24,719 bases of DNA from a virus (IMGVR_UViG_3300018080_000571:1-24719); one strand, 5' to 3'; shown: positions 3,295-12,941, counted from the stretch's first letter. Notes: generated from the letters alone by a model not told the origin. A program made the numbers and translations.

Positions 3295-5745
3295 ATGAAA
3301 CCTGAATCAGAAGTAATTCTGAACCAATTTAAACCACGCGATTACCAGATGGACTTTGCTCGTGCATTTGAAGAACAGGGTTATAAGAAGTTATTACTGG
3401 TCTGGCCTCGCAGGTGCTTGTCTGGCGAGTCACGTATAATTATGCATGATGGATCATATAAGTTGCTTAAAGATATCCGCGTTGGCGATAAGATATTGTC
3501 TTGGAATGGTAACAATGTTGAGTGTGATGAAGTTGTCGACTTCTGGGATGCTGGTATTAAAGATGCTGTAGGTATCAAATCTTCAAAGCAGCCATATCTT
3601 GTATCGTCGGAAGATCATAAGTTTGCGTATGTAAGTAATGCGCAAGATCAAATAGTTAAGTGGGATAAAATCAAAAATAGAACTGCTCGTACGTTTTTGA
3701 TGACCTATGCGGGGTTTGATAATAACGGAGAAGATAATCCAGATCTTGCAGAGTTTTTAGGCTATATGCATTCAGATGGTTATGTTTCTGGATATCAACA
3801 GCCTAAGTTTACCAACACAAATATGGAACTATTAAAACGTGTTGAGAGATTGGCTATAGACCTTTTTGGAGTTAAGGTAATTTGGCGTCCAAAAGGGAAC
3901 GGTTATGACTTGGGATTTTCGAATGGAACAAGCGGTGGTGCTCGTAAAAATCCGGTCAAACAGTTTTTCAGAAATGATGCAAAAGATGTTCCTAAAAGAG
4001 AAAGACGAGTACATTCGCGCGTATGGTCTTTTAATAATGCGTCTTTGTTGGCCTTTCTGGCTGGTGTCATAAGTGGTGACGGATGTATATCTTCAGCACA
4101 AACGGGATTTGTCAGCAAAGATAGAAATCGTAAAATTCCACCAGGTGTAGAAGTAACAATTAACTGTGGATCCAATAAAGATTATGCCGAAGATATATAT
4201 TGGATTTGTAGGCGACTTGGTATGTTGCCGCAAATACTTCAATTAGATAAAGGCTCTAACTGGAAAGTGAGAATATCTCGCTCTCAAGATGTTAAATTAC
4301 TGCTTTCTGTTCCTATAGTTGGTAAAAGAGAACGACAACAAGAGGTTTTACAAAAGATTGAACACAACACTTTCAAAAAACAGCTCTTTAAAGGTTGTTA
4401 TAGATTTTCATTTACGTCTGAGAGTGTTGAACAAGTGCATATGTATGATTTGCGCACTAAAAACAATCATAATTTTTTTGCCAATGGATTTTTGGTCCAT
4501 AACTCAGGTAAAGATTTTACTATCTTTAACATGATTGTGCGTGCTGCCCTTGTTCGTGTCGGTTCGTATTTTTATTGTCTTCCAACGGCGCAACAAGCCC
4601 GTCTCGTACTATGGGAAAGTCTTACAATTGATGGTAAAAAGTTCCTTGATTTTATACCAGAAGAGTTGATTGTCAGGACTAATTCCCAGCAGATGACCAT
4701 AGAGCTTATAAATGGATCAATAATACGTCTTATTGGATCAGATAACTATGACCGATCTCTTGTTGGAACAAATCCAATATGTGTAGTCTTTTCTGAATAT
4801 GCATTATGTGATGATCGTGCATACAAATTTGTTCGACCTATTATGAATGCAAATAAGGGAACGGTAATTATAGCCAGCACGCCCAGAGGGTATAATCATT
4901 TTTATGATCTTTTTCAGATTGCAAAGAATGCGCCTAAAGAATGGTTCTGTCAAAAGTTGACGGTAGATCAGACGGGCCATATAGATATAAACGACATTAA
5001 GCGTGATATAGCAAATGGGGAGATATCTGAAGAATTAGCTCAGCAAGAATACTGGGTCAGCTTTGAGATGGGCATTGAAGGGTCTTATTATGGAAAATAT
5101 ATAGATAAGATGCGTCTTGAAAATAGAATAACTGAAGTACCATGGGAACCATCATATCCCGTTTATGTTTCTATGGATCTGGGTATGAATGACTCAACCG
5201 TGCTGATATTCTTCCAAAAGATTGGTGCAGTTATCCATATAATTGATTACTACGAGAACAGTTCACAAGGACTTGAACATTATGTTCGTCATATGAAAGA
5301 CAAAGAATATGTATATGGTGAGATAATTGCCCCACATGACATTAAAGTTAGAGAATTAACCACTGGTATGTCACGACTGGAAAAATGCCGCGAGCTTGGA
5401 TTAGACATGCTTGTTGCCCCAAATCTGAAAGTACTTGATGGTATTGAAGCAGTAAGAACGGTATTGCCACGCTGTTGGATAGATGAGAAAAAGTGTAAAA
5501 GGCTTATAAAGGCTTTAGAGAATTATCGCAAAGAGTTTGATAATAAGCGCAAAGTTTATCTGGATAGACCTTGTCACGATCAGTGGAGTCATGCGTGTGA
5601 CGCTTGGAGATATGCCTGTGTAACATTGCCTCAATTAGGTGGTGGTTTAACTGCTGAGGAAATTGCTACAATGAAGCAAAAAGCATTATATGGTGATCAG
5701 AAAGATTTACCATATCCGTTTAATAGCAATTATAGATATCGATAG
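3295..5745 (+). CDS. terL: Terminase large subunit, interrupted by an intein
   Basis: The 816-residue precursor is a packaging ATPase-nuclease interrupted by an intein at 41-403. Removing it leaves 453 residues, normal for a large terminase. The spliced P-loop reads WPRR-SGKD (Walker A) and is complete only after splicing. Further motifs in precursor numbering: Walker B VVFSEY (497-502, catalytic Glu 501), coupling motif ASTPRG (527-532), and the RNase H-like nuclease with VSMDLG (Asp 628), APHD (Asp 682) and the final CDAW (Asp 769). The protein docks on the portal, cuts concatemers and pumps DNA into the procapsid. The start ATG follows a weak AGGGCTTG-type site. The first residues NQFKPRDYQ are typical of the adenine-binding motif upstream of the P-loop. 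Since the P-loop is split, packaging depends on protein splicing. Confidence 0.93.
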   Translation: MKPESEVILNQFKPRDYQMDFARAFEEQGYKKLLLVWPRRCLSGESRIIMHDGSYKLLKDIRVGDKILSWNGNNVECDEVVDFWDAGIKDAVGIKSSKQPYLVSSEDHKFAYVSNAQDQIVKWDKIKNRTARTFLMTYAGFDNNGEDNPDLAEFLGYMHSDGYVSGYQQPKFTNTNMELLKRVERLAIDLFGVKVIWRPKGNGYDLGFSNGTSGGARKNPVKQFFRNDAKDVPKRERRVHSRVWSFNNASLLAFLAGVISGDGCISSAQTGFVSKDRNRKIPPGVEVTINCGSNKDYAEDIYWICRRLGMLPQILQLDKGSNWKVRISRSQDVKLLLSVPIVGKRERQQEVLQKIEHNTFKKQLFKGCYRFSFTSESVEQVHMYDLRTKNNHNFFANGFLVHNSGKDFTIFNMIVRAALVRVGSYFYCLPTAQQARLVLWESLTIDGKKFLDFIPEELIVRTNSQQMTIELINGSIIRLIGSDNYDRSLVGTNPICVVFSEYALCDDRAYKFVRPIMNANKGTVIIASTPRGYNHFYDLFQIAKNAPKEWFCQKLTVDQTGHIDINDIKRDIANGEISEELAQQEYWVSFEMGIEGSYYGKYIDKMRLENRITEVPWEPSYPVYVSMDLGMNDSTVLIFFQKIGAVIHIIDYYENSSQGLEHYVRHMKDKEYVYGEIIAPHDIKVRELTTGMSRLEKCRELGLDMLVAPNLKVLDGIEAVRTVLPRCWIDEKKCKRLIKALENYRKEFDNKRKVYLDRPCHDQWSHACDAWRYACVTLPQLGGGLTAEEIATMKQKALYGDQKDLPYPFNSNYRYR
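3415..4503 (+). mobile_element. Intein with LAGLIDADG homing endonuclease in terL
   Basis: The insert runs from Cys 41 (CLSGESRI) to Asn 403 (FLVHN) and is followed by Ser +1. It is 363 residues, the size of a full bifunctional intein. Block A is CLSGESRIIMHDGS; block B has the SSEDH motif (His 108, with Ser in place of the usual Thr of TxxH); block F is MYDLRTKNNHNFFANG (Asp 385, His 392); block G ends in the penultimate His and Asn. Two DOD endonuclease motifs, LAEFLGYMHSDGY (151-163) and LLAFLAGVISGDG (251-263), each retain an acidic residue, so the homing enzyme appears intact. The insertion point, inside the P-loop, is a classic intein site. All splicing residues visible are present, so activity is likely. 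Confidence 0.95.
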
Positions 5746-5748
5746 TTT

Positions 5749-5778
5749 GTAATTGTTTTAATTCTCTTCTTAGAATGT
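5749..5778 (+). promoter_or_regulatory. Weak candidate promoter upstream of the portal gene
   Basis: In the 74-bp gap after terL, TTGTAA (5749-5754) is followed after 18 bp by TAGAAT (5773-5778). The -10 box matches five of six bases but the -35 only four. The portal gene may equally be read through from terL. Confidence 0.3.
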
Positions 5779-5819
5779 CGATATAACATATGTTGTATTA
5801 AATTTTTAGGGGAGTCTCC

Positions 5820-7874
5820 ATGTCTTTGTTCCCGCGAAATTCTAAGTACTCCGACAGTGATGCGCGCTGGTTGCTCTCGATGATGGAGTCAAGTTATAAT
5901 GAAGCGATAACAATAAATCAGGTCTATTGGGCTGAAGGTGATATAGATTCACGTTTTGAAGCAGGTGATCAATCTGCATGGAATGAGTATTATTCTCATT
6001 TACCAGTAAATCAGCGCAAACAGTTCAATTTTAATAGAATTAGACGTATAAAAAACATGATTTCTGGTCATCAGCGCAAACATCGCAAGTCTATCGTTGC
6101 TGAACCAATAGAAAATGGCGATGAAATGACCGCTGATCAGTTCACAAAGATATTTATGTGGCTGAACAAAAAAGAAAGCATACTTGAGACCATATCAGAT
6201 GCGTTTGATAGTGCATTAACAACGGGTTTAAGTTTCATTCAGTTATGGATGGACTATAGAAATGACCCGATAAATGGAGATATAAAGATTAATAACTGCG
6301 CTTATAATAGCTTTTTGGTAGATCCGTTCTTCAGGAAGACCGATTTAAGTGATTGCAATTACCTCTGGAAGCGAAGTTATCTTACGCGGGCTGAATGTAT
6401 ATCACTTCTTCCTGATATGGAAGAAGAAATTATGAGTCTGAATGGCTCAGATAAAGACGGCAAGTTTCAATATATGCCTGAAAATTACGCATATAAAGAC
6501 AATTGTCTGTTAACGTATGATGAATTCTACTATCGTACGTATCGCAGACAAAAGATGCTGGTTGATACACAAACGGGTGAGACGCTTGAGTGGAAATCAA
6601 AAAACAATGACTCTTTACGGGAGTTTTTGAGCCAATATCCGCAAATTGACGTGGTAGATGCAACAGTCCCAACGGTTAATCTTGGCATAATTGTCCAAGG
6701 CAAGGTTATGTACAACGATCGTGAGCCTATGGGTCTAGATACATACCCATTTATACCAATTGTTGCGTATTATAATCCTGATTTACCCTCGTATCATTTG
6801 CGTTTACAGGGAATTGTTCGTGGATTACGCGATGCACAGTTTTTGTACAATCGCCGCAAAGTAATTGAACTTGATATGCTTGAGTCGCAGATAAATTCTG
6901 GATTGATAGTAAAAGATGGCGCTCTTGTTGATCCAAATAGTGCACATCAGACTGGGCAAGGCCGTGTATTGTTCCTTAAAAAGGGCGCAGAAATAAGCGA
7001 TGTTCAGCCGATAGCGCCACCACAAGTTCCACCATCAACTATTGAGCTTTCACGATTACTTGGGGAAGAGATGCAGCAAATATCAGGTGTATCTGATGAA
7101 CTTCTTGGTGCAGCTGATGATGACAAAGCGGGTATTTTAAGTATGTTGCGACAAGGTGCAGCATTAACTACGCTTGAGGGTTTATTTGATAATCTGGATA
7201 ACTCGCAAAAGCTGATTGGCCGTATGATATTAAAGTTAGTGCAGAACAACTTCACGCCTGGAAAAGTAAAAAATATTATTGAACAAGATCCATCAGAGCA
7301 GTTTTATAATAAGTTCTTTGGGAAATATGATTGTGCAATAGTTGCAGGTCAAAATACCGATACACAAAGACAAATGGCTCTGTCACAAGGTCTCCAATTA
7401 CGTAATGCAGGGATTGCTATACCAGATGAGTTCTTCATAGAGAATCTATCGATACAGAACAAGACCGAGCTTAAGCAGATGCTGCAACAACAACAGCAAC
7501 AAGCACAACAAGCACAGCAAATGCAGCAACAAGCGCAGATGGAACTTATACAAGCGCAGAAACAAGAACAAGAAGCGCTGGCAAACGAAAGAAATACAAG
7601 GTCTGCTGCCAATATTGGCCTGGCTGAAGAACGACGTTGGGAGGCATATTCTAACCTGGAAGATGCGCAACTGTCTAAGATTAAAGCGCTTTCAGAACTT
7701 GAAAAGCTTGATATAGATAAATTGAATCAATTAATAGTAATATTGAATGCAATAAAGCAAGACTCGCAAGAAGAAGTTAATCAAACAGGTTTAAATAGTG
7801 ATCAAATGCAGGCTCGTTCAAGCTCCTCGGGCCTGCAAAAGCAAATGCCGCAAGAGCAGATGCCTGGTAGTTAG
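5820..7874 (+). CDS. Portal protein, P22-like
   Basis: This 684-residue protein forms the dodecameric ring at one capsid vertex through which the terminase pumps DNA. The N-terminal region matches P22-type portals: a helical start, then QFNFNRIRRIKNMISGHQRKH (about 71-91), a conserved element of the family, and SALTTGLSFIQLW about 130-142. The C-terminal 160 residues are glutamine-rich, including a run LQQQQQQAQQAQQMQQQAQ (about 557-575) and then a long charged helix; P22's portal likewise ends in a helical barrel. GGGGAG (about 5809-5814) precedes ATG 5820. The CAA/CAG run is a possible slippage or length-variation site. The gene follows terL, the usual order. Confidence 0.9.
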   Translation: MSLFPRNSKYSDSDARWLLSMMESSYNEAITINQVYWAEGDIDSRFEAGDQSAWNEYYSHLPVNQRKQFNFNRIRRIKNMISGHQRKHRKSIVAEPIENGDEMTADQFTKIFMWLNKKESILETISDAFDSALTTGLSFIQLWMDYRNDPINGDIKINNCAYNSFLVDPFFRKTDLSDCNYLWKRSYLTRAECISLLPDMEEEIMSLNGSDKDGKFQYMPENYAYKDNCLLTYDEFYYRTYRRQKMLVDTQTGETLEWKSKNNDSLREFLSQYPQIDVVDATVPTVNLGIIVQGKVMYNDREPMGLDTYPFIPIVAYYNPDLPSYHLRLQGIVRGLRDAQFLYNRRKVIELDMLESQINSGLIVKDGALVDPNSAHQTGQGRVLFLKKGAEISDVQPIAPPQVPPSTIELSRLLGEEMQQISGVSDELLGAADDDKAGILSMLRQGAALTTLEGLFDNLDNSQKLIGRMILKLVQNNFTPGKVKNIIEQDPSEQFYNKFFGKYDCAIVAGQNTDTQRQMALSQGLQLRNAGIAIPDEFFIENLSIQNKTELKQMLQQQQQQAQQAQQMQQQAQMELIQAQKQEQEALANERNTRSAANIGLAEERRWEAYSNLEDAQLSKIKALSELEKLDIDKLNQLIVILNAIKQDSQEEVNQTGLNSDQMQARSSSSGLQKQMPQEQMPGS

Positions 7875-7877
7875 GGG

Positions 7878-7907
7878 TTGTTAACCTTGCAGGTTGTACA
7901 ATATAAG
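7878..7907 (+). promoter_or_regulatory. Candidate promoter between portal and the next small gene
   Basis: TTGTTA (7878-7883) and TATAAG (7902-7907) are separated by 18 bp in the 68-bp gap after the portal gene. The -10 box matches five of six consensus bases. A GTTAAC palindrome overlaps the -35 region. Confidence 0.38.
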
Positions 7908-7942
7908 AATCGTTAATCTGCAGTTTCTACAAGAGGTGAAAT

Positions 7943-8161
7943 ATGACTAAGAAAAAATATTACGGTGTTCGAGAGACCGCTGGAATAGGAAATGCATCGG
8001 GAGGACGTTGTAATCTTCCGGGTGGTGTTAAATTTGTTAATGTTCCGTTTTTCCCAACAGCTGGTAAAGAGGGGCTTGATGATTCCATGTATGAAATAGA
8101 TCGTCAGATCCATGCAGATATGGGATTTCTTAACAGAATGCCAAGCAAGCTAGGAAAATAA
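7943..8161 (+). CDS. Small glycine-rich phage protein, unknown function
   Basis: A 72-residue protein is preceded by AAGAGGTGA at good distance from ATG 7943. It starts MTKKKYYGVRETAGIG and contains glycine-rich turns and a central FVNVPFFP segment. No family is recognised. It sits between the portal gene and the scaffold-capsid pair, among other small plus-strand proteins, so a virion or assembly accessory role is plausible but not shown. Its stop codon is one base before the ATG of a 23-codon frame. Confidence 0.6.
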   Translation: MTKKKYYGVRETAGIGNASGGRCNLPGGVKFVNVPFFPTAGKEGLDDSMYEIDRQIHADMGFLNRMPSKLGK

Positions 8162-8162
8162 G

Positions 8163-8234
8163 ATGCCTTGTGCTCCACGATCTAAAGGGAAAGCTAGAAA
8201 AATAGCAAAGAAAATACTTGGAAACGGGTATTGA
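8163..8234 (+). CDS. Possible 23-residue basic peptide
   Basis: An ATG one base after the preceding stop opens a 23-codon frame encoding MPCAPRSKGKARKIAKKILG and three more residues. The peptide is strongly basic and amphipathic, and a weak AGGA site lies about 10 bp upstream. It resembles the basic C-terminal tails of nearby genes (8684-9227). It could be a genuine tiny gene coupled to its neighbour or a chance frame. Confidence 0.35.
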   Translation: MPCAPRSKGKARKIAKKILGNGY

Positions 8235-8247
8235 AAAAGTCCCATGT

Positions 8248-8292
8248 AAAAACCCCGACCGAGAGAAACCATTCTTCACAAATCGGTCGAGG
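8248..8292 (-). terminator. Rho-independent terminator on the minus strand
   Basis: Arms CCCCGACCGA (8253-8262) and TCGGTCGAGG (8283-8292) pair. In the minus-strand transcript all ten positions pair, one as U-G, while the plus-strand transcript has a C-A mismatch. The minus-strand stem is followed directly by five U (8252-8248). Inside the 20-nt loop GAGAA and TTCTT can also pair. It therefore serves the minus-strand lipoprotein gene that ends at 8312. Confidence 0.75.
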
Positions 8293-8311
8293 CATCTTAA
8301 AATAAGCTTTT

Positions 8312-8611
8312 TTAGTCTAATGTATCATCTATAAACTTACAACCTTCGCCCGTTGTTTCATTATTGCCGTCTTCATTGAAATTTAACTTAATTGTTAAGT
8401 TATTTATTTCATCAAGGTCATCAAGAAGGTCTTCTGTAAAACTTAGTTTTGCCCCTGGAATATCCCAGTCAGCTGCACACATGGCTTCAATAAATTTAGG
8501 TGGTAATCCGTTTAGTCGTACAACTTCTCCTGTATCGGTCATTCGTTCATGGTATAAACACCCTTGGTTAGACAGTAAAACCAGTGCTATAAATACAGTA
8601 ATGTACGTCAT
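8312..8611 (-). CDS. Small secreted or lipoprotein-like protein, unknown function
   Basis: The frame extends to 8842, but the likely start is ATG 8611, preceded on the minus strand by GGGAAG. The 99-residue product begins with a signal-like hydrophobic stretch and a cysteine, MTYITVFIALVLLSNQGC, though the lipobox (NQGC) is poor. The mature part is acidic, with TEDLLDDLDEINN and two further cysteines (CAADW, EGCKF) that may form a disulphide in the periplasm. It is antisense to the surrounding genes and has its own terminator at 8248-8292, so it is a separately transcribed unit, a pattern typical of host-altering cargo or exclusion genes. Function is not recognised. Confidence 0.6.
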   Translation of the reverse strand: MTYITVFIALVLLSNQGCLYHERMTDTGEVVRLNGLPPKFIEAMCAADWDIPGAKLSFTEDLLDDLDEINNLTIKLNFNEDGNNETTGEGCKFIDDTLD

Positions 8612-8683
8612 AGACTTCCCTTTTTTTAGAAAATTTATAATGCCTAAGGTTAGAACAGTAGAAGCTATAAAACAAGGAGTGCA
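8611..8683 (+). promoter_or_regulatory. Gap between divergent genes with a perfect -10 box
   Basis: TATAAT occurs at 8636-8641, with only a weak -35 candidate (TAGACT, 8611-8616, 19 bp spacing). It could drive the plus-strand gene at 8684, whose AAGGAG lies at 8673-8678. A minus-strand promoter for the gene starting at 8611 must lie here or inside the plus-strand gene; none is clear. Confidence 0.35.
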
Positions 8684-9055
8684 ATGAAAATATCTGAAGA
8701 TAAAATGAAAAGGCTTGCTAAAGAGCTTGATATTAAAAAGAACAATATTCCCTACGCTGCGTTTAAGCGTGGTGTTCAAACTGAGCTCGAACATGGCCCC
8801 AAAAGTAAAGGCGGTATTTCCAATAAAACCGACGTAACGCATGGCAATTTAAAAAAGACTGCAAAGATAGCCAAGGCCCATTTGTTGGAGGGACCAAAGT
8901 ATTATCAATATCTAGATAAGTTGGAGAAAAAACTTGAAAAACCAAAAAGGAGAATGTTTAATGGAAAAGGCACGAAAACGAGAGCAAAAGCGACTTCACA
9001 AGCCAAAAAAAGCTACAAAAAAAGCATATCCAAAAGGGCCAAAAGCAAAGGCTAA
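8684..9055 (+). CDS. DUF5661-like phage protein with basic tail
   Basis: The first 85 residues of this 123-residue protein match the pattern I know for DUF5661: an F-x-x-G-[VL]-x-x-E-L-E-H-G element (FKRGVQTELEHG, about 27-38), then a T-[DN]-V-T segment (KTDVTHGN), then KIAKAHLLEGPKYYQYLDKLEK (about 67-88), corresponding to the family's K-I-A-x-A-H-L-x-E-x-P-x-Y-Y. The biochemical role of the family is unknown; members are common in phage genomes. The last 35 residues are a lysine and serine-rich tail that overlaps the start of the next gene by 95 bp. AAGGAG stands at 8673-8678. Confidence 0.7.
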   Translation: MKISEDKMKRLAKELDIKKNNIPYAAFKRGVQTELEHGPKSKGGISNKTDVTHGNLKKTAKIAKAHLLEGPKYYQYLDKLEKKLEKPKRRMFNGKGTKTRAKATSQAKKSYKKSISKRAKSKG

Positions 9056-9227
9056 GATAAAAAAAATTTTTCGTGAAGCAAAAGCAGGAAAATTAAGATC
9101 TGGAAGTAAGACTGGACCTAAAGTTACTTCACAAGACCAGATTCTCGCGATAGCATTATCAGAAGCAAGAAAAGCATCCAAGCGTCCGAGCCGCAAAAAA
9201 CAAGCACGTAAAACGAGTAAGAAATAG
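8961..9227 (+). CDS. DUF6496-like basic protein
   Basis: The start is ATG 8961 (AAAGGAG at 8946-8952), giving 88 residues. The N-terminal half is lysine-arginine-rich. The second half, KIFREAKAGKLRSGS (about 39-53) and KVTSQDQILAIALSEARKA, matches the DUF6496 pattern of E-x-K-x-G-K-L-x-S-G-S followed by V-T-x-x-x-Q-x-x-A-I-A-L-S-E-A. Members are small basic proteins found in phages and bacteria; function is unknown, though DNA binding or condensation would suit the charge. The 95-bp overlap with the upstream gene means both frames encode basic sequence over the same DNA. Confidence 0.7.
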   Translation: MEKARKREQKRLHKPKKATKKAYPKGPKAKAKIKKIFREAKAGKLRSGSKTGPKVTSQDQILAIALSEARKASKRPSRKKQARKTSKK

Positions 9228-9249
9228 CATATTAATGAGAGTAATATGC
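9227..9249. terminator. Perfect inverted repeat between convergent genes
   Basis: GCATATTA (9227-9234) and TAATATGC (9242-9249) form an 8-bp stem with a 7-nt loop spanning the stop codons of the convergent genes ending at 9227 (plus) and 9232 (minus). Neither side has a clean U-run, so it is at best a weak bidirectional terminator or an RNA end-protecting hairpin. Confidence 0.4.
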
Positions 9250-9732
9250 AGCTAGTGCGGCAGAGACGCTTGTTGCAATGGTAGATACAAGACCAATAGA
9301 AGCGATAATAATTTTCTGTTTTTTGTGTAATTTCACTTCATCTTTTTTGCGAATAACGTTCTCAGATAATTCTTTGATGATGTATTCAGTAATTTCATCA
9401 CGGTCTATTTTGGATTTTCCTTTTTTAGATTCAGCAATTTTTTGAAGTGCTTTTCTTGTTTGACGCAATTCTTTATACAATTTACCTTCACGGTCTCTCT
9501 CGAGACTTTTGCCAATTGTTTTGATAACAAACGCATCTGAGTTTCCATTCATTGCTTTATGAACAAGTTTATAAGCAAATGGGTGCATCTTGCGTGCGTA
9601 GTCAACAGCCGATGGAGATCCGGGTTCGATTTCAATAATTATGGAATTTGATCGGTCACGTTGTGATGTTTGTAATTCCATTGAGCACGATGCTATACAT
9701 GCACTAATGAGTAAAAATATTAACTTGTTCAT
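9232..9732 (-). CDS. Lipoprotein with C-terminal membrane helix, candidate unimolecular spanin
   Basis: The 166-residue product begins MNKLIFLLISACIASC, a signal peptide ending in a good lipobox (IASC, Cys 16), and ends with a hydrophobic helix, about 138-162 (KIIIASIGLVSTIATSVSAAL). Lipidation at the N-terminus with a C-terminal inner-membrane anchor is the defining topology of u-spanins, which join outer and inner membranes and fuse them at the end of the lytic cycle in Gram-negative hosts. The middle is charged and largely helical, unlike the beta-rich T1 example, so the role is inferred from topology alone. AAGGAG precedes ATG 9732 at 5 bp. No holin or endolysin is adjacent. It lies antisense within the plus-strand structural cluster. 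Confidence 0.55.
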   Translation of the reverse strand: MNKLIFLLISACIASCSMELQTSQRDRSNSIIIEIEPGSPSAVDYARKMHPFAYKLVHKAMNGNSDAFVIKTIGKSLERDREGKLYKELRQTRKALQKIAESKKGKSKIDRDEITEYIIKELSENVIRKKDEVKLHKKQKIIIASIGLVSTIATSVSAALAAYYSH

Positions 9733-9738
9733 ACATCT

Positions 9739-9755
9739 CCTTGTTTTTTACAAGG
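9739..9755 (-). promoter_or_regulatory. Hairpin that includes the ribosome binding site of the minus-strand gene
   Basis: CCTTGT (9739-9744) and ACAAGG (9750-9755) form a perfect 6-bp stem with a 5-nt loop. In the minus-strand transcript the 3' arm ACAAGG contains most of the AAGGAG site of the spanin-like gene, so folding would hide the site and lower translation. Regulation is inferred. Confidence 0.4.
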
Positions 9756-9784
9756 ATAACTAAGAATGGTAAAAAGGAGCAAGA

Positions 9785-10273
9785 ATGAAAGAGAAGCGTG
9801 ATACTGTAGGAAGATTAGCCCGAATGGCGTTTGAGAAATATGCGGGTGAATATGATATTGAAGATATACGTGAAGAAGCCCAAAAAGATTACTTAAATAA
9901 ACTTGTAGATACAGCCTATCAGGGAACAAAGTCTTATAATGATGACTTTTTTGTTGTAGTTGAGTCAAAGATTGAACCACTAATGAAAAACGTCATAAGA
10001 AACTATATTTTCCATAGATCAACATGTCCTACACCACATTATGGCCAAACAGTTTACAGATATCGATATACAACTGATGAACTTGAGTATTTATGGTGTG
10101 TTCCAGATAAAAACCAGGCCGAACATATAAGAGAACATGTGTTTGAATATCCTGAAAGTTATCGGGGGTTAGTTGAGCATGTTATCGATTTTTATGATGG
10201 AACACTCGCACGCAAAGCCCTTGAGCTAAATAAAGAAGATATGAGAATAGCGGAGCATGTAGTAATACACTAA
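9785..10273 (+). CDS. Conserved-looking phage protein between portal and scaffold, unknown function
   Basis: The 162-residue protein starts at ATG 9785, 5 bp after AAGGAG. It is hydrophilic and mostly helical, with an aromatic-rich central stretch (YIFHRSTCPTPHYGQTVYRY, about 77-96) and the segment LEYLWCVPDKNQAEHIREH. Its end, FYDGTLARKALELNKEDMR, looks like an ordered helix. No signal peptide or membrane segment is present. It immediately precedes the scaffold gene (8 bp gap), so an assembly or virion-associated role is the best guess. I do not recognise a named family. Confidence 0.6.
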   Translation: MKEKRDTVGRLARMAFEKYAGEYDIEDIREEAQKDYLNKLVDTAYQGTKSYNDDFFVVVESKIEPLMKNVIRNYIFHRSTCPTPHYGQTVYRYRYTTDELEYLWCVPDKNQAEHIREHVFEYPESYRGLVEHVIDFYDGTLARKALELNKEDMRIAEHVVIH

Positions 10274-10281
10274 GGAGTAAT

Positions 10282-11025
10282 ATGTTAGAAAATGAAGAAT
10301 TAAGCGAGGTTCAAAATGAATCTGAAGTCACTGCTGAGTTTATTCAAGAAACCGAAGCACAACAAGACAACGAACAAACTCAAACAGAAGAAGAATCTCA
10401 AGAACAAAAAGCGCAAATTCCCAATCAAGCAAATGATCCTTACGTCGATCAAGTACAAAACTGGAGAGCACTCCGAGAAAAAGTAGCCCAAGCTGAACGC
10501 GAACGAGATGAAGCGCTGGCGAGATTAAATCAAAATCAACCCAATACTCAAACAAACCAAGAATCGTTTAATATAGGCGATGATGATTTGGCTGAGGGCA
10601 AGCATCTTAAGTATTACTATCAACAAAGCGAGCAAAAGCTAAAGCAAGTTGAAGAACAATTAATTGAGACTAAATTGCGTAATGCATATCCTGATTTTGA
10701 TAGCGTTGTAAATCAAGAAACATTAAGTATGCTTCGTGATGCAGATCCAGAACTTACTGAATCACTTGCAGCAAATCCAAACTTGTATTCAAAAGCAGTA
10801 GCTGCGTATAAATCAATCAAACGCTATGGATTATCGCCAAAAAGTTACGACAAAGAAAAAGAAATGGTGAAAAATAATTCAGCTAAACCACGAACAGTAA
10901 ATTCATTAAGTCCACAACAAGGAAATAGCCCGCTATCAAAAGCAAATGAATTTGCCCAGCGTCTTACTCCAGAACGAAAAAAACAAATTCGTGAAGAAAT
11001 GCGAGAGATTATTCGCAACGGTTGA
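10282..11025 (+). CDS. Capsid scaffolding protein (probable)
   Basis: This 247-residue protein has the composition of a scaffold: an acidic, glutamate-glutamine-rich first 60 residues, a coiled coil about 60-82 (WRALREKVAQAERERDEALA) and another about 108-130 (YYQQSEQKLKQVEEQL), a serine-asparagine-rich linker, and a short, charged C-terminal helix (LTPERKKQIREEMREIIRNG). A C-terminal helix of this kind binds the coat protein in P22-like systems. It lies directly upstream of the capsid gene, the standard position, and is separated from it by a strong terminator. It would direct procapsid assembly and then leave the shell. AAGGAG precedes ATG 10282. Confidence 0.75.
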   Translation: MLENEELSEVQNESEVTAEFIQETEAQQDNEQTQTEEESQEQKAQIPNQANDPYVDQVQNWRALREKVAQAERERDEALARLNQNQPNTQTNQESFNIGDDDLAEGKHLKYYYQQSEQKLKQVEEQLIETKLRNAYPDFDSVVNQETLSMLRDADPELTESLAANPNLYSKAVAAYKSIKRYGLSPKSYDKEKEMVKNNSAKPRTVNSLSPQQGNSPLSKANEFAQRLTPERKKQIREEMREIIRNG

Positions 11026-11059
11026 AAATTAATGGTGCTTCATCCGCTTCTCTTATTGG

Positions 11060-11088
11060 CCCCCATTTAACTATGGGGGTTTGTTTTA
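11060..11088 (+). terminator. Rho-independent terminator after the scaffold gene
   Basis: CCCCCAT (11060-11066) and ATGGGGG (11073-11079) form a 7-bp stem with a 6-nt loop, followed by TTTGTTTTA. It separates the scaffold gene from the capsid gene, so capsid mRNA needs read-through or its own promoter. Confidence 0.85.
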
Positions 11089-11249
11089 CTTTAATTTTTC
11101 ATGATACAAATTCATTGAGTTGTAATGGAAGTCGCTCATCCAAAAAATGGCCGTATCGAATCTCGCCAGTTCATGACTGTAGCGGAATTATCCGCATAAG
11201 ACTCGTCATCTTGTATGAATGGTTAAATCTATTTGTATAAGGAAAAAAT
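11089..11249 (+). promoter_or_regulatory. Capsid gene leader
   Basis: These 161 bp between the terminator and the capsid start must contain the capsid promoter if read-through is low, but no consensus promoter is clear. A 5-bp hairpin GCGGA-ATTA-TCCGC lies at 11182-11195. The ribosome binding site is a modest AAGGA at about 11239-11243. Confidence 0.4.
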
Positions 11250-11287
11250 ATGCCTATAACTACAACAACCCAGTTACCGGCTCAGGT
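11250..11287 (+). CDS. Major capsid protein, exon 1
   Basis: ATG 11250 opens a 38-nt exon encoding MPITTTTQLPAQ and the first two bases of a valine codon. This matches the well-known N-terminus of N4-gp56-family capsid proteins (short T-rich start, then QLPAQVQQ). Unspliced, the frame would stop two codons later at TGA 11292-11294. The last base is U, which forms the conserved U-G pair with the intron guide. Spliced to 12029 it continues V-QQTWDNRLLAAETPELIH. Confidence 0.88.
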
Positions 11288-12028
11288 AAAATGATGTGCC
11301 TGACTAAAATTCGAGGTAATTACTTGGAAAGTCTAAACATAAGTAACAATCCTTGCTATACTACATATGGTGCAACATATATAGATAAAAAGGACTACTT
11401 ATGCATGATAACCAGAGGCAAACGCATTGGGCGTATATAGCAGGTGTTATGGATTCTGATGGAACGTTTATGATAACAAGGCACAAACGAAAAACTACGC
11501 GAAAAAACCATCCACATACAGTGGATCAATGGTCTTGGACGTATTTGCCAGCCATAAAGGTTTCTCAAGTTGAGCCAGAAGCAATAAACTTTCTTGCAGA
11601 ATTTACAGGACAAAAAACTATATACCTCCATGGCGCTTCTCCTTCGCGACCAACAAGACGACCTATTTATAGTTGGGGAATTAGAAAAAGATCTAATTTG
11701 ATACCTTTTTTAGAAGGTGTTATCCCATACTTGCGTATTAAGAAGAATAGGGCTTTATTTTTGTTAAAATACTGCAAACATGTAATAGAATGTCCTAATC
11801 CGTATAGGTATTTTGGTTTATCGAAGGAAGAGCTAGATTTTCGAGAGGATTCGTATCAGAAAATGCGAAAGCTCAATGAAAATAAAGTAGCCGCAGAGAC
11901 TAAACCCTTGAAACGCGAGAGCGTAAGTGATAGTCCAAACTTATAGGAAACTATAAGAGGATTGATCGAAGCGTCAGTCCCGCCAGAAATGGTCAGTAGG
12001 GCTTAACCCACCCGAAAGTAATAGCTAG
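11288..12028 (+). mobile_element. Group I self-splicing intron in the major capsid gene
   Basis: The 741-bp intron begins after exon base T 11287 and ends with G 12028, as group I introns do. The guide GCCTGA (11298-11303) pairs with exon TCAGGT (11282-11287), ending in U-G (P1). TGT just before the guide (11295-11297) can pair with ACA at the start of exon 2 (P10). P7 is GACTA (11898-11902) with TAGTC (11931-11935); P8 is ACGC-GAGA-GCGT (11913-11924); P9 is TTATAG-GAAA-CTATAA (11941-11956), both with GNRA loops. Splicing restores the frame exactly (951 nt, 317 codons including stop). The endonuclease gene sits inside at 11401-11946 and its 3' end overlaps the catalytic core. Confidence 0.93.
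11401..11946 (+). CDS. Intron-encoded LAGLIDADG homing endonuclease
   Basis: The 181-residue protein has a single LAGLIDADG motif near its start, WAYIAGVMDSDGTF (about 10-23), including the catalytic aspartate, then a basic strand (ITRHKRKTTRKNHP) and a second helix region FLEGVIPYLRIKKNRALFLLKY typical of this family. One motif implies action as a homodimer, as with I-CreI. It would cut an intronless capsid gene near the TCAGGT-ACAACA junction and so spread the intron. AAGGA lies at about 11389-11394. The frame's last 45 codons run through P7, P8 and the first part of P9, so protein and ribozyme constrain the same bases. Basic tail residues may reflect that. Confidence 0.9.
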   Translation: MHDNQRQTHWAYIAGVMDSDGTFMITRHKRKTTRKNHPHTVDQWSWTYLPAIKVSQVEPEAINFLAEFTGQKTIYLHGASPSRPTRRPIYSWGIRKRSNLIPFLEGVIPYLRIKKNRALFLLKYCKHVIECPNPYRYFGLSKEELDFREDSYQKMRKLNENKVAAETKPLKRESVSDSPNL

Positions 12029-12941
12029 ACAACAAACATGGGATAACCGGTTGCTTGCAGCAGAAACTCCAGAATTAATTCATGGATTCGCTGCAATGTA
12101 CAGAAATATGCCTAAAAATGGTGGCCGTTTCTTGCGTTCAAGCAGATATGAACTCTTACCAACTAGCCCAGTTCCTCTTGGAAATACGGGTGTTACACCT
12201 CCGGCGGTAACTCCAGATAGAGTAGATATTGATGTTCAAATGCAATTTTATGGTCAATACGTAATTTTAAATGAGCAATGTACGCTCCAAAACCAAGATC
12301 CCGCGCTCACGGCCGTAACAGAGCGTCTTGGTGTATCCATGCGTATGACTGAAGATGAATTGACTCGTGATATGCTGGCAGCCAGCGCAGGGTTCATAAA
12401 CTGCGTCGGCGGCGGAAATGGAGATAATCCTACAGAAATCACCGCTTCAGATTGTGCAGTTGCATACCAGGCCTTGCGTAGTAATAACGCAAAGACGGTT
12501 GCAACAAACATTGAAGGCGCGGATAAGTTTGGTACTTCTCCAATTAGAAATTCTTATTTGGCGATGTGTGACTCTGACTTGTCTACAGATATCCAGAATG
12601 TAAATGGATTTGTACATGCTGCGCAGTATCCACAACAGGCAAATATTCGCCCAAGTGAGTGGGGTAATGTACAGAACTTGCGCTTCTTCACATCGAGTGT
12701 TGGATCAATAACAACTGCAGCTTCTGCTGCCGGTGCTGATGTTTATAACATCTTTGTCACTGGTATGGAAGCGTACATGCTGGTTGATCAAGAATCTTAT
12801 GGAAATCATTTTGTGTACTTGCCACCTGAATTTTCTGGGCCTCTAGCGCTAAATGCGTCGGTGGGATGGAAGATGTCGTTTGCAAGTACAATCACAAATG
12901 ACCTTTGGGTTCTTAATCTTCGCACAACGCGTCGATTCTAA
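12029..12941 (+). CDS. Major capsid protein, exon 2 (N4-gp56 family)
   Basis: Joined to exon 1 (11250-11287) this gives a 316-residue coat protein. Family features are clear: SPVPLGNTGVTPPA (spliced residues about 73-86), a VDIDVQMQFYGQYVILNEQ segment, TEDELTRDMLAASA, GADKFGTSPI and the C-terminal SVGWKMSFASTITNDLWVLNLR. The protein forms the icosahedral shell by the HK97 fold. Read without splicing, the frame could be taken to begin at TTG 12051, which would lose the N-terminal arm; no ribosome binding site supports that start. The upstream in-frame stop is TAG 11997-11999, inside the intron. Next downstream gene follows at 14 bp. Confidence 0.92.

Follow-up and report, generated by a model that had tools for sequence, protein, structure and literature searches.

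According to the parts of Yutin et al. (2021; PMC7886860) on which we draw, group I introns occur in the genes for the major capsid protein and other core proteins of crAss-like phages of the Delta and Zeta groups, and an intein occurs in their TerL. The same parts of that paper report a major capsid gene of crAss-like phages that is split into five pieces (PMC7886860). In mycobacteriophage LittleE, an 819-bp, probably group I, intron with a LAGLIDADG open reading frame (ORF) is described in the major capsid gene in the portion of the report used here, where its splicing was demonstrated by reverse transcription PCR (RT-PCR) and protein sequencing (PMC3706429). Here we analyse IMGVR_UViG_3300018080_000571:1-24719, a 24.7-kb phage fragment from IMG/VR (the whole of it is referred to below as the window), in which TerL, a P22-like portal (Pfam), a putative scaffold and the coat gene follow one another in late-gene order. 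An insert identified as an intein interrupts its TerL, and an insert with the features of a group I intron interrupts its coat gene. Very probably, these are two independently acquired, self-splicing homing elements that carry LAGLIDADG endonucleases and reside in essential late genes. The combination as such, an intein in TerL with an intron in the coat gene, is already known from published crAss-like phages. The span given for the two elements in an earlier note on this DNA, 3415..12028, runs from the first base of the intein to the last base of the intron, and both elements are real.

The TerL ORF occupies positions 3295-5745 (this and all other features are on the plus strand unless indicated). 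Its codons 1-40 (3295..3414), ending in ..WPRR, form the N-extein; the C-extein (4504..5745), supported by the gene model and by profile matches, starts with SGKD and contains the nuclease domain and the stop codon. Between them, at 3415..4503, lies an in-frame insert of 363 amino acids that begins with Cys1 and ends in His-Asn followed by Ser+1. It is inserted in the Walker A motif exactly between PRR and SGKD, and the spliced product, joined as WPRR/SGKD, aligns from end to end with intein-less TerLs at 45-69% identity. The insert matches the Pfam families Intein_splicing (4.4e-9) and LAGLIDADG_3 (5.8e-9), and its match to NCBIfam intein_Cterm exceeds the cut-off of that model; phmmer matches to PDB entries were weak. 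The predicted structure (predicted local distance difference test score, pLDDT, 71.5) matches the TliVMA intein (E 1.7e-15) and PI-SceI (3.6e-14), i.e., a HINT fold with an inserted endonuclease. A search of IMG/VR with the intein as a query returned no relatives, and intein relatives were obtained by extracting inserts from TerL alignments; H68, H362, N363 and Ser+1 are invariant across the four homologous inteins at the same TerL site. As can be seen, the insert is in frame, has no counterpart in homologues and possesses Cys1, the block B His, the terminal His-Asn and Ser+1. Sequence and predicted fold together mark it as an intein that harbours a putative two-motif LAGLIDADG domain. The first motif, LAEFLGYMHSDGY, lies at 3745..3783 and the second, LLAFLAGVISGDGCI, at 4045..4089; the acidic residues of both are retained in the window.

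The coat gene is broken after the second base of codon 13. Exon 1 (11250..11287) encodes MPITTTTQLPAQ, an N-terminus conserved in relatives, plus the first two bases of V13, while exon 2 (12029..12941) matches the major head protein family PHROG 1357; joined together, they encode a complete coat protein. A separate spliced alignment by dynamic programming placed the junction at the identical bases. The intervening sequence of 741 nt (11288..12028) ends in G, and the 5' exon ends in a U that is paired with a guide G in P1. The 5' strand of P1, UCAGGU (11282..11287), pairs with GCCUGA (11298-11303), with the U.G pair at the splice site. Within the internal guide (11295..11303) the latter sequence is preceded by UGU, which pairs with ACA at 12029-12031 to form P10. 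The insertion points had been called highly conserved sites, and this is so for both: the TerL site is the Walker A motif, and the V13-Q14 step of the coat protein is invariant in an alignment of eight sequences.

The predicted core consists of P3 (UUCGAGG, 11310..11316, paired with CCUUGAA, 11906-11912), P7 (GACUA, 11898..11902, paired with UAGUC, 11931-11935), P8 (ACGC-GAGA-GCGU, 11913..11924) and P9 (CUUAUA-GGAAAC-UAUAAG, 11940..11957). These helices were followed through nine homologous introns that share this location, those of the window and of contigs L015, L155, L163, L165, L172, L186, L204 and L241 (L numbers are our labels for related contigs). In the resulting alignment, 99.5% of cells are paired and 17 of the 22 pairs have changed on both sides, including all seven in P3, all four in P8 and one of five in P7, the other P7 pairs being invariant. 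When the partner strands were slid by 1-3 columns as a control, pairing fell to 32-50%. The guide also follows the exon: UCAGGU/GCCUGA in the window becomes CACCGGU/GCUGGUG in L204 and GCGCCU/GGGCGC in L163 and L186. In the last two, where the intron interrupts coat codon 12, the same intron lineage sits 2 nt upstream of the position corresponding to 11287, with its guide altered to fit the new exon. The intron scores 101.8 bits with our covariance model R1, and a covariance model of the 3' core finds a single copy in the window, at 11891-12028; the window was part of the training set in both cases.

The intron ORF (11401..11946), whose 3' end overlaps the P7-P9 core, encodes a putative homing endonuclease with a single LAGLIDADG motif, AYIAGVMDSDG, at 11431-11463. 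The motif has the catalytic Asp, and the predicted fold is that of I-CreI/I-MsoI (pLDDT 74.7; Foldseek E 3e-7). The ORF carries the PHROG 5046 label, HNH, but its top structure matches are LAGLIDADG proteins and the alignment shows no HNH motif, so the label is probably wrong for this I-CreI-like member. That the two enzymes belong to different LAGLIDADG types, as the earlier note proposed, is borne out by motifs and folds: the intein has two motifs and the intron ORF one. This difference in architecture supports independent arrival of the intein and the intron.

It can be proposed that the intein is translated within TerL and excises from the protein through Cys1 and Asn363 with Ser+1, which would restore the Walker A motif PRRSGKD. 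In the coat transcript, guanosine would attack after U11287 and ligation would take place after G12028, so that the intron leaves the mRNA and codon V13 is restored. The intein enzyme would act as a two-motif monomer and the intron enzyme as a one-motif homodimer of the I-CreI kind. When a relative without the element co-infects, each enzyme would cleave its empty allele, and repair would then copy the element across.

The occurrence of both elements in relatives fits such a cycle. Among 129 distinct TerLs, a site-40 (Walker A) intein is present in the window, L088, L239 and L242/L243 alone, and the nearest TerL relatives found (66-69% identity) lack it. Other relatives carry TerL inteins near codons 123, 165, 224 or 404; in L060, TerL is interrupted by a group I intron near codon 267. 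In L032 (4013-4041), the TerL frame is broken near Walker A with no splice signature, which may be a sequencing error or decay. The coat gene is free of introns in 87 of 137 distinct full-length copies, and L168 has neither element. Out of 45 contigs with both genes complete, five have both interrupted, nine the coat gene only, two TerL only and 29 neither (Fisher p 0.02, a value that ignores kinship, related contigs not being independent); the excess of double interruptions is only suggestive of uneven exposure. Within the 129 TerLs and 137 full-length coats, no other carrier of the Walker A intein was found to have the codon-13 coat intron. Thus no other carrier of either element was found carrying both, and the elements vary separately, as independent arrival would have it. 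The earlier note was also correct that both hallmark genes depend on splicing, but this is not special to the window: at least five further contigs (L026, L034, L088, L236 and L242) have interruptions in the TerL gene as well as in the coat gene, and crAss-like phages provide a precedent (PMC7886860). The sparse distribution, the common empty alleles and the open endonuclease frames agree with its proposal of homing through exposure to related phages, and in the comparison with related genomes the two elements are not both fixed and degraded in all relatives. The window elements are probably still mobile.

Homing is not the only way to account for these data. The elements may be useful to their carriers, with the endonucleases kept as weapons that cut competitors in mixed infections (marker exclusion). 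In favour of this, their targets are essential and conserved genes and empty alleles are common, but the anatomy is identical to that of plain homing elements, from which sequence cannot separate it, and we regard this reading as rather unlikely. It is also unlikely that the elements are dead relics that persist merely by splicing, their endonucleases being inactive. In relatives, the first LAGLIDADG motif of the homologous intein of L242 no longer has its acidic residue, and many coat introns are about 200 nt long, below the size needed for an endonuclease ORF. In the window, however, the intein motifs and the intron ORF retain their acidic residues and frames, and no stop interrupts the ORF in any of nine diverged copies.

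The earlier note also suggested a timing device, i.e., that the splicing events are retained as a delay on late proteins. Both genes are late and essential, introns have been proposed as on-switches in the literature (PMC11878797), and coat and TerL elements co-occur above expectation in the 45 contigs, an excess that may stem from selection but that uneven exposure explains equally well. Most relatives, however, have the same genes without both elements (as noted, 87 of 137 coat genes are uninterrupted and 29 of 45 contigs have neither element), the sites and element types vary between relatives in a parasite-like manner, and no regulatory feature was found. The elements are gained and lost independently, and this is evidence against a regulatory role; the suggestion is very unlikely to hold. 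Finally, a free-standing endonuclease gene upstream of a coat gene that begins at TTG 12051, with no intron at all, can hardly be entertained, for although the ORF from this TTG matches coat families by itself, exons 1 and 2 restore the N-terminus MPITTTTQLPAQVQQTWDNRLL conserved in uninterrupted relatives, and P1/P10, the terminal U and G and the covarying core contradict it.

Several points weigh against the conclusion that the window carries two homing elements. That splicing and cutting occur at all we infer from sequence. The generic group I model of Rfam matches only the 3' half of the intron, weakly (18.7 bits, E 0.048, with a gathering threshold of 50), and at the gathering threshold Rfam has no match in the window; the P4-P6 zone houses the ORF, and its helices did not emerge from the alignment. 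The median ratio of nonsynonymous to synonymous polymorphism (pN/pS) of the intron ORF, which is open in all nine copies, is 0.51, and a value near 0.5 with near-saturated synonymous sites is weak evidence of selection. The relatives are metagenome contigs or contigs of metagenome-assembled genomes (MAGs), mostly fragments without assigned hosts, and pattern-based sampling of them is uneven. The class of the intron is nevertheless settled, despite the sub-gathering Rfam score, because P3, P7, P8 and P9 covary; the Rfam library alone would miss this predicted group I intron.

In relatives, the coat gene is an intron hot spot. Intron-allowing alignment to the genomes placed inserts at more than 20 coat codons; in almost every case the exon ends in U and the intron in G, a combination that the scoring of the spliced alignment favours. 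Five predicted group I introns are present in one coat gene of L046 (8384-10985) and likewise of L253 (coat match from 10001). A covariance model trained on coat introns found 59 cores in 71 contigs (1.31 Mb), 55 in the coat gene, three in the portal gene and one in TerL, the coat share being biased upward by the training and by the fact that contigs were fetched by coat, mini-intron (see below) or TerL. The portal genes interrupted by the same core family are at L042:3356-3478, L172:12532-12666 and L218:13595-13717. Introns group mainly by site: the nearest neighbour is from the same site for 36 of 67, and clustering by genome was rejected, the nearest neighbour being from the same genome in merely four of 67. 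Jumps to new sites are nevertheless seen, since L033 has two introns that are each other's sisters, and L042 (= L058) also contains a sister pair.

During intron placement in the coat genes, inserts of only 34-37 nt were initially sighted at codon 88 in four loci. A guide-based pattern then retrieved 40 contigs; a further pattern that allowed any base at the P10 position added about 40 coat genes. Statistics were collected on 63 distinct insert-plus-exon sequences (L063:3481-3515, L053:966-999, L030:3184-3220, L034:9227-9260, L042:10163-10196 and 58 further ones); an independent GTDB contig, L254, carries the same mini-insert, and the window has none at codon 88. The inserts are 28-41 nt long, have no core and show P1 and P10 guide pairing. 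Their guide is complementary to UACGGU of the 5' exon and forms a U.G pair at the splice site; the search patterns imposed this pairing. The third base of the 3' exon, which is silent, pairs with the guide in 63 of 63 sequences (C-G 42, T-A 9, A-T 6, G-C 6; at most 42 in shuffles), the C-G state being fixed by the pattern of the first scan and the other three not imposed.

In 57 of the 63 sequences, the mini-insert has a full intron downstream of it, located at codon 97, 105 or 117; in the other six, either the contig stops short of this region or the alignment becomes ambiguous towards its end. The codon-97 and codon-117 introns also occur without the mini-insert, and in this sample the mini-insert never occurs without a partner. 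Its tail pairs with an exon segment that ends 7 or 8 nt upstream of the 5' splice site of the partner in 57 of 57 cases, despite the three partner positions; the P1 of the partner, read by eye, is 8 bp, and the tail-exon helix and this P1 abut. The tail-exon helix covaries. For the whole structure, 98.6% and 97.4% of cells are paired, with 33 and 12 double changes, compared with 0-6 in slid controls. The data thus establish the pairing and its covariation, as well as the presence of a neighbouring intron in each resolvable case.

Other origins of the mini-insert were considered and rejected. The 63 distinct sequences speak against an assembly error. Translational bypass of the T4 gene 60 type would entail neither covariation in P10 nor an intron as partner, and no second copy of the take-off codon GGT is present at the landing site. 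An in-frame peptide is ruled out by lengths in all three classes modulo 3 and by stop codons on read-through in 63 of 63. A complementarity search for pairing of the tail with the partner intron itself gave no consistent segment; the exon pairs instead. We consider it likely that the mini-insert is a natural core-less group I intron, a satellite that would be excised, along with its neighbour, by the neighbour's ribozyme, which would thus act as a "spliceozyme": in the simplest scenario, the partner ribozyme would take the P1 of the mini-intron first, remove the mini-intron and then turn to its own P1. Long inserts also occur at the mini-intron's site, in L236 (coat codon 88, 720 nt) and at L261:8020-8725 (706 nt). 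The former is a full intron that nests inside the codon-13 clade, the lineage of the window, which suggests that it was transposed from one site to another and hints at where the mini-intron may have come from.

Two further observations concern the genomes themselves. Between portal and scaffold, the window has two minus-strand ORFs, 8312-8842 (-) and 9232-9732 (-), the second of which starts with a lipoprotein-like signal, LLISACIASCS. Three of the seven coat relatives among GTDB contigs (L248, L251 and L253) fall in Chlamydiota MAGs (Simkaniaceae, Parachlamydiaceae and Parachlamydia), which is a hint at the host that a binning error could equally produce.

The window thus offers a clearly resolved example of a phage in which two hallmark genes each contain a homing element, and the two elements come and go independently. 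The relatives matter more, since they document in detail how introns have been gained, lost and moved within one gene. If the proposed splicing is true, the mini-intron is a non-autonomous group I intron, and its neighbour is a group I ribozyme that in nature splices another intron besides its own; no natural counterpart to the mini-intron was found in searches of an open-access library.

As in the window, a group I intron in the coat gene and an intein in TerL occur together in crAss-like phages, whose genomes are far larger (145-192 kb in the larger group, compared with up to about 43 kb for the coat-bearing contigs studied here); core-less mini-introns are not mentioned in the parts of that paper used here (PMC7886860). 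LittleE differs from the window in phage group and insertion site and in having its ORF on the opposite strand, and the portion of the report that we cite mentions no TerL intein (PMC3706429). In Stenotrophomonas phage StenR_269 (OR838459), a homologous endonuclease (29% identity) lies directly upstream of the major capsid gene, as in the window, but the two are annotated as separate genes, unlike in our model. The window intron ORF shares the single-motif LAGLIDADG fold with I-CreI and I-MsoI at merely 16-24% identity. The mini-introns are paralleled by small group I introns of fungal rRNA, one of which was reported to self-splice; these are likewise core-poor, with P1, P10 and pairing of the intron with the 3' exon, but they are longer (63-75 nt) and reside in rRNA (PMC3160393). 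An engineered group I spliceozyme is artificial and acts in trans, but, as in the model proposed here for the mini-intron and its partner, a ribozyme removes another, core-less intron (PMC4094466).

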